A stretch of DNA of 64,000 nucleotides from Leisingera sp. JC1. Lineage in GTDB: Bacteria; Pseudomonadota; Alphaproteobacteria; Rhodobacterales; Rhodobacteraceae. The stretch covers positions 179,100 through 243,099 of the forward strand of contig NZ_LYUZ01000081.1 in assembly GCF_001679925.1 (NCBI RefSeq), read 5' to 3'. The position numbers were made by a program, and so were the translations under genes. How positions within the stretch are numbered: the stretch's first letter is position 1; the number at the start of each line of letters is the position of its first letter. A model generated the notes under the pieces. That model was not told the origin of the DNA. It worked only from the letters and a program-made list of their open reading frames with translations, and ran no database searches. Of the stretch, positions 16,459-18,863 are shown piece by piece.

Positions 16459-17592
16459 ATGCCCCGTTCCGTAACTGCTGACGCATCCGGCAGCTTTCTG
16501 ACCCTGACATTCGAAGACGGCAGCGAAAGCCGCTTTCATGCGATCTGGCTGCGCGACAACGCGCTGGACCCGGAAACACGCGCCCCTGGCAACGGCCAGC
16601 GGCTGATCACCATCGGCGACATTCCGGTGGACACCAAAATCAGCACCGCGCTGGTGGAACACGGATCTTTGACCGTCACATTCGCCCCGGAAGGCAAAAC
16701 CGTGACTTTCCCGGTAAGCTGGTTGAAGGCTCACGCCTATGACATTGACAGGCCATCGGATTTCGGCCGCATGGCCCCAGGCATCGAAACCTGGAACAGC
16801 AGCCTGCCTGCCCCTGTGTTCGACTGGGAAGACGTGCAGTCCGACCCCAAAGTCAAACGGGACTGGCTGGAGGCGATTGCACGTTTGGGGTTCGCCAAAT
16901 TGATAAACGGCCCAGTGAAAGAAGGCGCTTTGATTGAAAACGCTGAAATGTTCGGTTTCGTCCGCGAAACGAATTACGGCAAGTATTTCGAAGTGCGCAC
17001 CGAGGTGAATCCGACCAACCTCGCGTATACAGGCCTGGGCTTGCAGGCGCATACCGATAACCCCTACCGCGACCCGGTGCCCAGCTTGCAGATCCTGTAC
17101 TGTCTGGAGAACTCGGCCGAGGGCGGCGAGAGCATTGTGGTGGACGGCTTCCGCGCAGCCGAACGCCTGAAAGCAGAAAACCCCGCAGGCTTTGCCCTGC
17201 TGGCAGGCTACCCGGCCCGGTTTGAGTACAAGGGGTCTGACGGCGTGCACCTGCGCTCCCGCCGCCCGATGATTGAACTGTCACCCGATGGCGAGATGGT
17301 CGGCATGCGCTTCAACAACCGCTCCTCTGCGCCGTTTGTCGACATTCCGTTTGACCAGATGGAAGCCTACTACGCCGCTTACCGCCGGCTGGGTGAGTTC
17401 ATTGACGATCCGGACATGGGCGTATCCTTTAAGCTGGAGCCGGGGGAAAGCTTCATCGTTGATAACACCCGCGTGATGCATGCCCGCCTGGGGTATTCCG
17501 GTTCCGGCTCTCGCTGGCTGCAGGGCTGCTACGCCGACAAGGATGGTCTGCTGTCGACCCTGAACGTGCTGAACGCGCAACTGGAGGGCTGA
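16459..17592 (+). CDS. tmpA: 2-(Trimethylammonio)ethylphosphonate dioxygenase (TmpA), BBOX-like
   Basis: TmpA is an Fe(II)/2-oxoglutarate oxygenase that hydroxylates C1 of 2-(trimethylammonio)ethylphosphonate. It looks like gamma-butyrobetaine hydroxylase and is often annotated so. The 377-residue protein has an N-terminal GBBH-like domain and a TauD-type core with facial triad His198, Asp200 (QAHTDNP) and His341 ([11 protein letters not shown]). The three N-terminal zinc cysteines of the animal enzyme are replaced (Ala35, Asp37, Thr40 after WLRDN). The assignment over a carnitine enzyme rests on the tmpB gene three bases downstream. A butyrobetaine hydroxylase remains possible if the pair proves coincidental. 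Confidence 0.85.
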
Positions 17593-17595
17593 GAG

Positions 17596-18201
17596 ATGAG
17601 CAAGCCAGACGTCAGCCAGCTGAACCGGGACAATATCGTAGACTTCATCGGCGGTATCTTCGACCGCCGCGGCGATGAGGAATACCTGGGCGAGCCGGTC
17701 ACCATGGCCGAGCACATGCTGCAAGGCGCCACCATCGCCGAGCAGAACGGCCAGCCGGAAGAGATCATCGTTGGGGCACTCCTCCACGATATCGGCCATT
17801 TCACCAGCGAGTTCGGCACTTTCTCCATGGATGACACGGAGGACCGTTACCATGAGGAAGCCGGAGCCGAGGTTCTGGAGCAGTTCTTCCCGTCGGTCAT
17901 CACCGATTGCGTCCGTTACCATGTGGCCGCCAAGCGTTATCTTTGCGCCACCAAGCCTGAATATTTCAACCGTTTATCAGAGGCGTCTGTCCATTCCCTG
18001 AACCTGCAGGGCGGACCGATGAATGCGGAGGAAGTTGCCGAGTTCGAGCAGAACCCGAACCTCAAGCAGATCATCGCGGTGCGCTATCTGGACGAGGCTG
18101 GAAAACGGGACGACATGGACACTCCGGATTACTGGCACTTTGCGCCGATGGTCCAACGGATGGTGGACAAGCACATGGGAACGGGAGGTTCCGCAAAATG
18201 A
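17596..18201 (+). CDS. tmpB: HD-domain mixed-valent diiron oxygenase (TmpB), PhnZ-like
   Basis: TmpB cleaves the C-P bond of the hydroxylated phosphonate made by TmpA, releasing glycine betaine and phosphate. The 201-residue protein keeps the PhnZ pattern with the same spacing: Tyr30-Leu-Gly-Glu33 flap, His40, His64-Asp65, His68, His86, His109 and Asp166. These supply the diiron site and the Tyr/Glu gate that separates the oxygenases from ordinary HD phosphohydrolases. The gene starts after GGAGGG and overlaps the next gene by four bases. Confidence 0.87.
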   Translation: MSKPDVSQLNRDNIVDFIGGIFDRRGDEEYLGEPVTMAEHMLQGATIAEQNGQPEEIIVGALLHDIGHFTSEFGTFSMDDTEDRYHEEAGAEVLEQFFPSVITDCVRYHVAAKRYLCATKPEYFNRLSEASVHSLNLQGGPMNAEEVAEFEQNPNLKQIIAVRYLDEAGKRDDMDTPDYWHFAPMVQRMVDKHMGTGGSAK

Positions 18202-18863
18202 GCGCGCCCGAGTATATCTTCGAGGCCAGCACCAAGCCCTCACTGCCCTGGCATGAGGTTCCGCTGATCCGGGCCACCGAGGAAAGCGTCAAGGGCTATG
18301 GCTGCCTGGTGGACGATCCGGAAAATTTCGAGATCGAAATCGTGCAATGGCCCGCCCAGGGCTGGCGGCCGATTGACGAAGGCACCGGCGACGAGGCCGG
18401 CTGGGTCGAGGGCACCTTCCGCGGGGATTGGCGCGGAGATGTACTCTATGGCGAGAACGAAGCGGTTAACGGCAACTACGTGCTGGGCTGGTCCACCGAC
18501 CCGCAGCAGGCCCAGGTGGAAGCGCTGACCGCGCCGCAGGATCAGGTGCTTTTGTGGCACATGAATTATCATCCCGATGGCGGCCAGCTGTTCTATCCGC
18601 TGGACAACAAACCCTTCATCATCCCCGTGGCCCTGCCGGGGGATGATCTGAAGCCGGAAAAGGTCGTGGCGTTCTGGTGTGACGGGTCCAAAGGGCTCTA
18701 TATCCACCCGAATATCTGGCACGAAGGGATCTTTCCGGTGGAGGACAGCCAGCGCTTTCTCGACCGGCAGGGCAAAGTGCATGCCCGGGTCAGCTGCGAT
18801 GTGGGCAAGGAGTTCGGCGTTTACCTGTCCTGCCCACTGCGCGAAGACAAGATCCAGGGCTAA
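18198..18863 (+). CDS. AllA-like cupin (ureidoglycolate lyase family), third gene of the tmp operon
   Basis: The product has 221 residues. The C-terminal half matches the ureidoglycolate lyase (AllA) cupin fold: KPFIIPVALPGDD, then GLYIHPNIWHEGIFP with His residues in the places of the AllA active site. No allantoin or purine catabolism gene is nearby. Its start lies in the tmpB stop (ATGA), so the two are translated together. It may act on an intermediate of the trimethylaminoethylphosphonate pathway or be a small-molecule isomerase or lyase of another kind; the function is not known from sequence. Confidence 0.75.
   Translation: MSAPEYIFEASTKPSLPWHEVPLIRATEESVKGYGCLVDDPENFEIEIVQWPAQGWRPIDEGTGDEAGWVEGTFRGDWRGDVLYGENEAVNGNYVLGWSTDPQQAQVEALTAPQDQVLLWHMNYHPDGGQLFYPLDNKPFIIPVALPGDDLKPEKVVAFWCDGSKGLYIHPNIWHEGIFPVEDSQRFLDRQGKVHARVSCDVGKEFGVYLSCPLREDKIQG

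Follow-up and report, generated by a model that had tools for sequence, protein, structure and literature searches.

A third gene of the tmpAB operon in Leisingera sp. JC1: an AllA-fold protein predicted to serve in hydroxylated aminoethylphosphonate catabolism

Contig NZ_LYUZ01000081.1 of Leisingera sp. JC1 carries, within the 64,000-nucleotide stretch analysed here (the window), a phosphonate operon in which tmpA and tmpB are followed by a third gene, called C3 throughout (Table 1). The product of C3 resembles the ureidoglycolate lyase AllA, and we describe here why it is better seen as an AllA-fold protein that has moved into a new pathway. That pathway is very probably that of phosphonates and not of purines.

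The three genes are open, co-directional frames. The start of C3 lies inside the tmpB stop, an overlap of four bases that was noted in a preliminary description of this DNA and that recurs widely (see below). The hairpin that follows C3 (59 nt folded at -19.5 kcal/mol, z -4.25) is consistent with a three-gene unit, tmpA-tmpB-C3; a pattern scan covering 15400-20300 gave neither this hairpin nor a sigma-70-type promoter. No purine genes were seen by eye among the open reading frames (ORFs) listed for 10000-26000, in agreement with the preliminary description. The divergent LysR gene has its best NCBIfam match in GcvA (178 bits, cut-off 288), and its score on the aminoethylphosphonate LysR profile TIGR03339 (phn_lysR) is only 65 bits.

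Table 1. Features of the tmpAB-C3 locus (positions in the window)
Feature	Position	Strand	Remarks
LysR-family regulator	15481..16359	-	divergent from tmpA; Pfam HTH_1 + LysR_substrate
tmpA, 2-trimethylaminoethylphosphonate dioxygenase	16459..17592	+	377 aa; NF049936; PDB 6npb
tmpB, (R)-1-hydroxy-2-trimethylaminoethylphosphonate oxygenase	17596..18201	+	201 aa; NF049941; PDB 6npa; di-iron + YxxE residues
C3, predicted AllA-fold accessory protein of phosphonate catabolism	18198..18863	+	221 aa, 24.9 kDa; PF04115, AlphaFold2 model, tmpB overlap
Terminator-like hairpin with A/U tracts, 3' of C3	18882..18909	+	12-bp stem

The identity of the first two genes is clear. They had been read as the pair that acts on 2-(trimethylammonio)ethylphosphonate, and both products pass the cut-offs of the corresponding equivalog profiles: TmpA with 593 bits on NF049936 (cut-off 400) and TmpB with 368 bits on NF049941 (cut-off 300). 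In phmmer searches of PDB they match 6npb (E 1e-231) and 6npa (E 1e-126), respectively. All the TmpB ligands proposed earlier are present, namely Y30 and E33 of the YxxE motif, H40, H64, D65, H68 and H86; H109 and D166 are present as well, and complete the H...HD...H...H...D di-iron motif given in PMC8177086. (Here and below, PMC8177086, PMC10574752, PMC12366243, PMC10590968, PMC3793230 and PMC8154272 other than its section 16 are drawn on for portions of their text.)

The label given to C3 in the preliminary description, AllA-like, holds for the core and the fold but not for the AllA cut-offs or for the residues that AllA conserves. C3 matches PF04115 (Ureidogly_lyase) with 50.4 bits (cut-off 23), the match being restricted to residues 121-188. 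An AlphaFold2 model (30 rows, mean pLDDT 84.8, pTM 0.85) was compared with PDB by Foldseek, and the top five matches were all of the AllA type (2bdr, E 1.5e-10; 1xsq, E 2.3e-8), with root-mean-square deviations of 4.6-9.1 and TM by target of 0.60-0.71. The Pfam match and the model together place C3 in the PF04115 superfamily, as a predicted AllA fold. On eight AllA equivalog or subfamily profiles, however, C3 scores 34-48 bits against cut-offs of 160-315. A full-length AllA (163 aa, 192 bits) is encoded separately on contig C100 of the same genome and is its other PF04115 match; two ORFs of 471 and 473 aa adjoin it and look by eye like an allantoinase/decarboxylase-type protein and a permease.

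Residues were compared in an alignment of 48 C3-type and 10 AllA-type rows, from which four AllA rows were omitted, two (L103, L110) by a length filter and two (L101, the own AllA of L081) because tblastn gave no hit between them and C3. In C3 numbering, H125, P126, G128, Q130, F132, P134, W174 and H175 are common to both groups, whereas at four positions C3 departs from the residue that AllA conserves, having D60 for N, N123 for E, Y124 for R and G129 for S. In a tree of the 58 rows the C3 clade stands apart from AllA with support 100/100, in a run that gave long-branch and unsettled-bootstrap warnings. Judged from its sequence, then, C3 is not simply AllA, since the profile scores are far too low and the AllA-conserved residues are replaced.

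The gene neighbourhood provides the first link to phosphonates. A scan of genome contigs gave 343 relatives of C3, of which the best 80 were examined, a sample that leans to close relatives. In these best 80 loci tmpB adjoins C3 in 65: the order is tmpA-tmpB-C3 in 60 (some cut by contig ends), tmpB-C3 in four and C3-tmpA-tmpB in one, neither gene being nearby in the remaining 15. Where tmpB is directly upstream (64 loci), the overlap is of 4 bp in 61, of 1 bp in two and of 70 bp in one; the 4-bp overlap is not there by chance. The 15 genomes without nearby tmpAB and the four with tmpB-C3 were searched genome-wide. TmpB is above the cut-off in 14 of these 19 genomes and a TmpB-like protein is below it in two more, PhnW is present in 13, and every one of the 19 has a TmpB-like protein, PhnW or both. 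TmpA is above the cut-off in 11, and there is no TmpA match (E 1e-60) in the four tmpB-C3 genomes (G737-G740). An exclusive tie of C3 to TmpA was rejected on account of these four, which are metagenome-assembled genomes and possibly incomplete. PhnW occurs without a TmpB-like protein in G748, G749 and G752, and in G748 and G752 pbfA adjoins phnW. Linkage to allantoin genes is not seen: the 471-aa ORF that neighbours the own AllA has no match in any of the C3 loci examined, and an AllA-type gene is found in L053 only, 5.9 kb away.

Co-occurrence across genomes points the same way. Among 198 genomes of the window's family, searched at E 1e-20 for C3 and at E 1e-50 for TmpB, C3 is found in 14 and TmpB in 27 (26 of them above the cut-off); TmpB is present in 13 of the 14 genomes with C3 vs. 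14 of the 184 without (Fisher, 3e-12). The two genes are adjacent in seven of the 13 genomes that have both and apart in six (on separate contigs in five, about 150 kb distant in one), so that physical linkage alone does not explain the co-occurrence. The preliminary description had proposed looking for just this pattern, C3 with tmpB and away from allantoin genes, and it is borne out in the loci and genomes examined. Stop codons interrupt C3 in G387 and in G324, and also one of the two C3 matches of G376. At G387 (L141/L143) the interrupted C3 stands beside a stop-free tmpB match, and C3 may therefore be lost with TmpB retained.

In a wider set of 289 genomes of the class (Alphaproteobacteria), matches of at least 187 bits were taken as C3-type, the next match being at 49 bits, which leaves a natural gap. 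C3 is found in 17 genomes, spread over 13 families. PhnW (TIGR03301, E 1e-60) is present in 15 of these 17 vs. 40 of the 272 without C3; the match in G231 is only partial and lies at a contig end. The corresponding counts are 15/17 vs. 47/272 for PhnZ/TmpB-like proteins (NF049941, E 1e-20), 5/17 vs. 6/272 for TmpB above the cut-off, and 7/17 vs. 10/272 for PbfA (NF049939, E 1e-120). When PhnZ/TmpB-like and PbfA are taken together, one or the other is present in 17/17 vs. 55/272 (Fisher, 1e-11) and, within PhnW-positive genomes, in 15/15 vs. 17/40 (Fisher, 5e-5). All 17 share an enzyme of the kind that handles 1-hydroxy-2-(amino or trimethylammonio)ethylphosphonates, namely TmpB, PhnZ-like or PbfA, the PhnZ/TmpB-like proteins below the cut-off being assigned by similarity. 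As a control, 17 genomes in which the C3 model gave only weak matches, almost all of the AllA type, show no significant enrichment (PhnW 4/17, PhnZ/TmpB-like 6/17). One of them, G034, which has a TmpB-like gene, gives two short matches (C7:44180-44485), to positions 3-56 of the model and, with a stop, to positions 176-217. These are probably the remains of a C3 gene rather than an AllA, and without G034 the control counts are 4/16 and 5/16. A phylum set of 219 genomes has C3 in two only, G000 and G037, both alphaproteobacterial and already known. In sum, C3 recurs with phosphonate degradation genes beyond chance, as measured by tests that treat relatives as independent.

More distant relatives of C3 keep phosphonate company without TmpA. 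In the family of small genomes to which G161 belongs, C3 is present in 56 of 60 genomes, and 29 of the 56 loci were inspected (L158-L186). The phnW gene adjoins C3 in all 29, in the same direction in 28 and as an opposite-strand fragment at a contig end in one, and in 28 a PhnZ-like gene is transcribed divergently. In the wider locus of G161 (L124), phnY (TIGR03250, 785 bits, cut-off 636) and phnA (TIGR02335, 466 bits, cut-off 408) lie on the other strand, about 2 kb beyond the C3 cluster. Elsewhere, phnS2, an aminoethylphosphonate transporter gene, directly follows C3 (L038; TIGR03261, 536 bits, cut-off 393); a pbfA-phnY-phnA-phnW cluster lies within about 7 kb of tmpAB-C3 in L060 and L064, the pbfA of L064 scoring 680 bits on NF049939 (cut-off 525); and in L053 the genes phnW, phnY and phnA are no more than 10 kb away. 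The LysR genes divergent from C3 in eight loci (L069, L076, L115, L121, L123, L127, L128 and L140) all have their best match in TIGR03339, the LysR of aminoethylphosphonate catabolism, at 213-269 bits. As controls, three phnW-adjacent LysR proteins score 290-321, and the window LysR and four others score at most 116 or are unlisted. The tie to tmpAB suggested in the preliminary description is therefore right as far as operon linkage goes, but it is too narrow: C3 and its relatives also accompany PhnW, PbfA and PhnZ-like proteins where TmpA is missing, and the role of C3 extends beyond tmpAB.

Several other features of these loci may be recorded here. In the window, the opposite-strand genes beyond the hairpin look by eye like suf genes, and the first of them, which was scanned against Pfam, encodes an Aminotran_5 protein. 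The same genome has a phnW-phnA-phnY-pbfA cluster on contig C136 (L189). A gene of about 276 aa follows C3 in L058, L060, L063 and L064, follows tmpB in L148 and is also found in L141/L143; the L064 copy is a PF01663 type I phosphodiesterase and has no NCBIfam match at 1e-10. In most loci inspected of the G161 family, the slot after C3 is filled by a calcineurin-like phosphoesterase (PF00149 in L124). Beside tmpAB in L154 and L155 there is another TmpA-like gene, of about 36 % identity, and the genes after it look by eye to be of the carnitine type. Clusters of the form phnW-phnA-phnY-LysR-TmpA-like-TmpB-like are found in L144, L145 and L146, with 39-42 % identity to TmpA/TmpB, and perhaps represent a further substrate variant of the oxygenase pair.

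The co-occurrence of C3 and its neighbours (tmpB, phnW and the aminoethylphosphonate-type LysR) therefore point to the catabolism of hydroxylated aminoethylphosphonates, not to that of purines. There is roughly an even chance that C3 is an accessory enzyme of this catabolism, derived from the AllA fold. That its substrates would be 1-hydroxy-2-(amino/trimethylammonio)ethylphosphonates, or a direct by-product of them, is an analogy that could equally hold or fail, and any one specific reaction is unlikely at best. The suggestion in the preliminary description that C3 acts on a pathway intermediate or a side product remains the leading idea.

AllA is nickel-dependent, and its activity is abolished by ethylenediaminetetraacetic acid (PMC3793230). 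AllA uses its metal on an alpha-hydroxy acid, and an alpha-hydroxyphosphonate is the phosphonate counterpart of such an acid; from this we infer a metal enzyme acting on that class of compounds. In C3, a divalent metal would be held in the AllA-type core by H125, Q130 and H175, the putative ligands, and would chelate the alpha-hydroxyphosphonate where AllA takes ureidoglycolate. C3 might then convert a compound that TmpB, PhnZ and PbfA refuse into one that they accept, or clear it; candidates include the S enantiomer, a by-product formed by oxidation or transamination, and an N-substituted variant. Two precedents indicate that handling such compounds calls for additional enzymes in the cell. 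The NAD-dependent racemase PbfF salvages S-1-hydroxy-2-aminoethylphosphonate (S-HAEP; PMC12366243), and PhnW converts R-HAEP to an unstable product, presumably an aldehyde, that slowly releases phosphate (PMC8154272, section 16). We also considered that C3 stands in for the racemase PbfF. In this connection, L213:3193-4203, from a genome with C3 and tmpAB (G754), encodes a D-2-hydroxyacid dehydrogenase between pbfA and phnW (best NCBIfam match PGDH, 254 bits, below the cut-off), a candidate PbfF. A bolder version of the proposal would make C3 the founder of a new class of enzymes, in which a cupin with a metal acts directly on alpha-hydroxyphosphonates as an isomerase, a lyase or a C-P cleaving enzyme, and which is common to the TmpB, PhnZ and PbfA routes. 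This is unlikely, and we know of no AllA-fold protein with direct alpha-hydroxyphosphonate chemistry.

Several points weigh against assigning C3 to hydroxylated aminoethylphosphonates. The metal ligands are carried over from AllA by analogy, and the reaction itself is a prediction from gene context and analogy. The AllA reaction breaks a C-N bond at the hydroxylated carbon, with urea as the leaving group. In hydroxylated aminoethylphosphonates C1 carries no group of this kind, so the reaction of AllA cannot be transferred unchanged to C3. TmpB occurs without C3 in 14 of the 27 family-set genomes, which makes C3 dispensable for TmpAB, and C3 occurs without TmpB in G452 of the same set. The class-set threshold for C3 was chosen after the scores were known, and the Fisher tests count related genomes as independent. 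The eight LysR proteins divergent from C3, and the three phnW-adjacent controls as well, are all under the TIGR03339 cut-off of 341. G749 has PhnW but lacks a TmpB-like match, and neither of its two phnW neighbourhoods contains pbfA. Homologs of C3 with 55-56 % identity are carried on Paraburkholderia plasmids (seven records; L187, which is unannotated, and L188), and none of the 15 annotated genes of L188 is a phosphonate gene, one being a major facilitator superfamily gene. Phosphonate genes were not found near C3 in L068, L074 and L080. Finally, genes of the DAO/GCV_T (dimethylglycine dehydrogenase) type lie beside C3 in L042, L044 and L047 (a Pfam run for L044, by eye for the other two), and the tmpB-C3 locus L031 has MTTB-family and DAO/GCV_T genes.

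These last neighbours would suit a role for C3 downstream of TmpAB, on glycine betaine or on a one-carbon or glyoxylate by-product of betaine or glycine. The analogy behind it is that AllA makes glyoxylate. A GhrA-like D-2-hydroxyacid dehydrogenase gene directly after C3 in two loci (L062:10670-11605 and L073:2407-3342; 158-168 bits, cut-off 403) would fit as well; pairing of C3 with it for glyoxylate handling was considered, and a relative of the GhrA-like gene is beside C3 in these two loci only. By eye, however, there are no betaine genes near C3 in L124, with its phnW cluster, or in L038, and hydroxyphosphonate enzymes are present in all 17 class-set genomes with C3. A downstream role is rather unlikely.

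The conserved tmpB-C3 overlap, the four tmpB-C3 loci without a TmpA match in the genome and the PhnZ/TmpB-like proteins in 15 of the 17 class-set genomes could also mean that C3 is a non-catalytic helper of the HD-type di-iron oxygenase, serving in metal loading, assembly or protection. Against this, G168, G226, G748 and G752 have C3 and PbfA, a pyridoxal phosphate (PLP)-type enzyme, without a PhnZ/TmpB-like match, and the AllA-core residues are conserved in C3. In addition, TmpA and TmpB are reported to carry out the conversion as a pair (PMC10574752). We consider the helper role quite unlikely.

Very unlikely is a role in handling the reactive products of PhnW on R-HAEP (1-hydroxyphosphonoacetaldehyde). 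The adjoining phnW in 29 of 29 loci and the slow release of phosphate from the presumed aldehyde speak for it. On the other side, C3 and TmpB are found with no PhnW match in G194, G287, G742-G746 and G751, and the trimethylated form of HAEP (M3HAEP), being a quaternary amine, cannot be transaminated. That C3 acts in purine catabolism as a standard ureidoglycolate lyase and is in the operon by chance is extremely improbable: this reading has the PF04115 match and the nearest solved folds on its side, but was rejected on the profile scores, the separate AllA, the four residue changes, the neighbourhoods and the control genomes with AllA-type matches, which lack significant enrichment of phosphonate genes.

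Phosphonates are a large source of organic phosphorus in the sea. A conserved third gene that keeps company with several hydroxyphosphonate enzymes suggests that a step in their use has been missed, one that may involve a hidden substrate (the S enantiomer, for instance) or an overlooked by-product. Marine 'ureidoglycolate lyase' annotations may likewise belong in some cases to phosphorus, not purine, metabolism, which would correct metabolic reconstructions. The word 'ureidoglycolate' is absent from the main texts of PMC12366243, PMC10590968, PMC8154272, PMC10574752, PMC11203657 and PMC8177086, a scope that does not include the original TmpA/TmpB paper; it occurs in PMC12636525, PMC3597751 and PMC12506659 and, in the portions of these three that were available, has no tie to phosphonate genes.

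Three known systems invite comparison. The first is the TmpA/TmpB pathway of Leisingera caerulea, to whose solved structures, 6npb and 6npa, the window enzymes are near-identical. TmpAB is called a two-gene operon in a review (PMC10574752), whereas here and in 60 of the best 80 C3 loci a third gene is added. The second is AllA/DAL3 ureidoglycolate lyase (EC 4.3.2.3, PF04115), with which C3 shares the cupin core, the H125-x4-Q130 and W174-H175 motifs and the predicted fold; it differs in being longer (221 vs. 163 aa for the own AllA), in having another N-terminal half, and in having phosphonate instead of allantoin genes as neighbours. The third is the set of accessory factors PbfA-PbfF. Their genes are accessory, as is proposed for C3, and extend the range of substrates open to phnW clusters; PbfA and PbfF act on R- and S-HAEP (PMC8154272, PMC12366243). 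They are enzymes of other kinds, PbfA being PLP-dependent, PbfB-D flavin adenine dinucleotide enzymes (PMC10590968) and PbfF an NAD-dependent racemase; in the portions of these papers drawn on, none is described as an AllA-fold protein.

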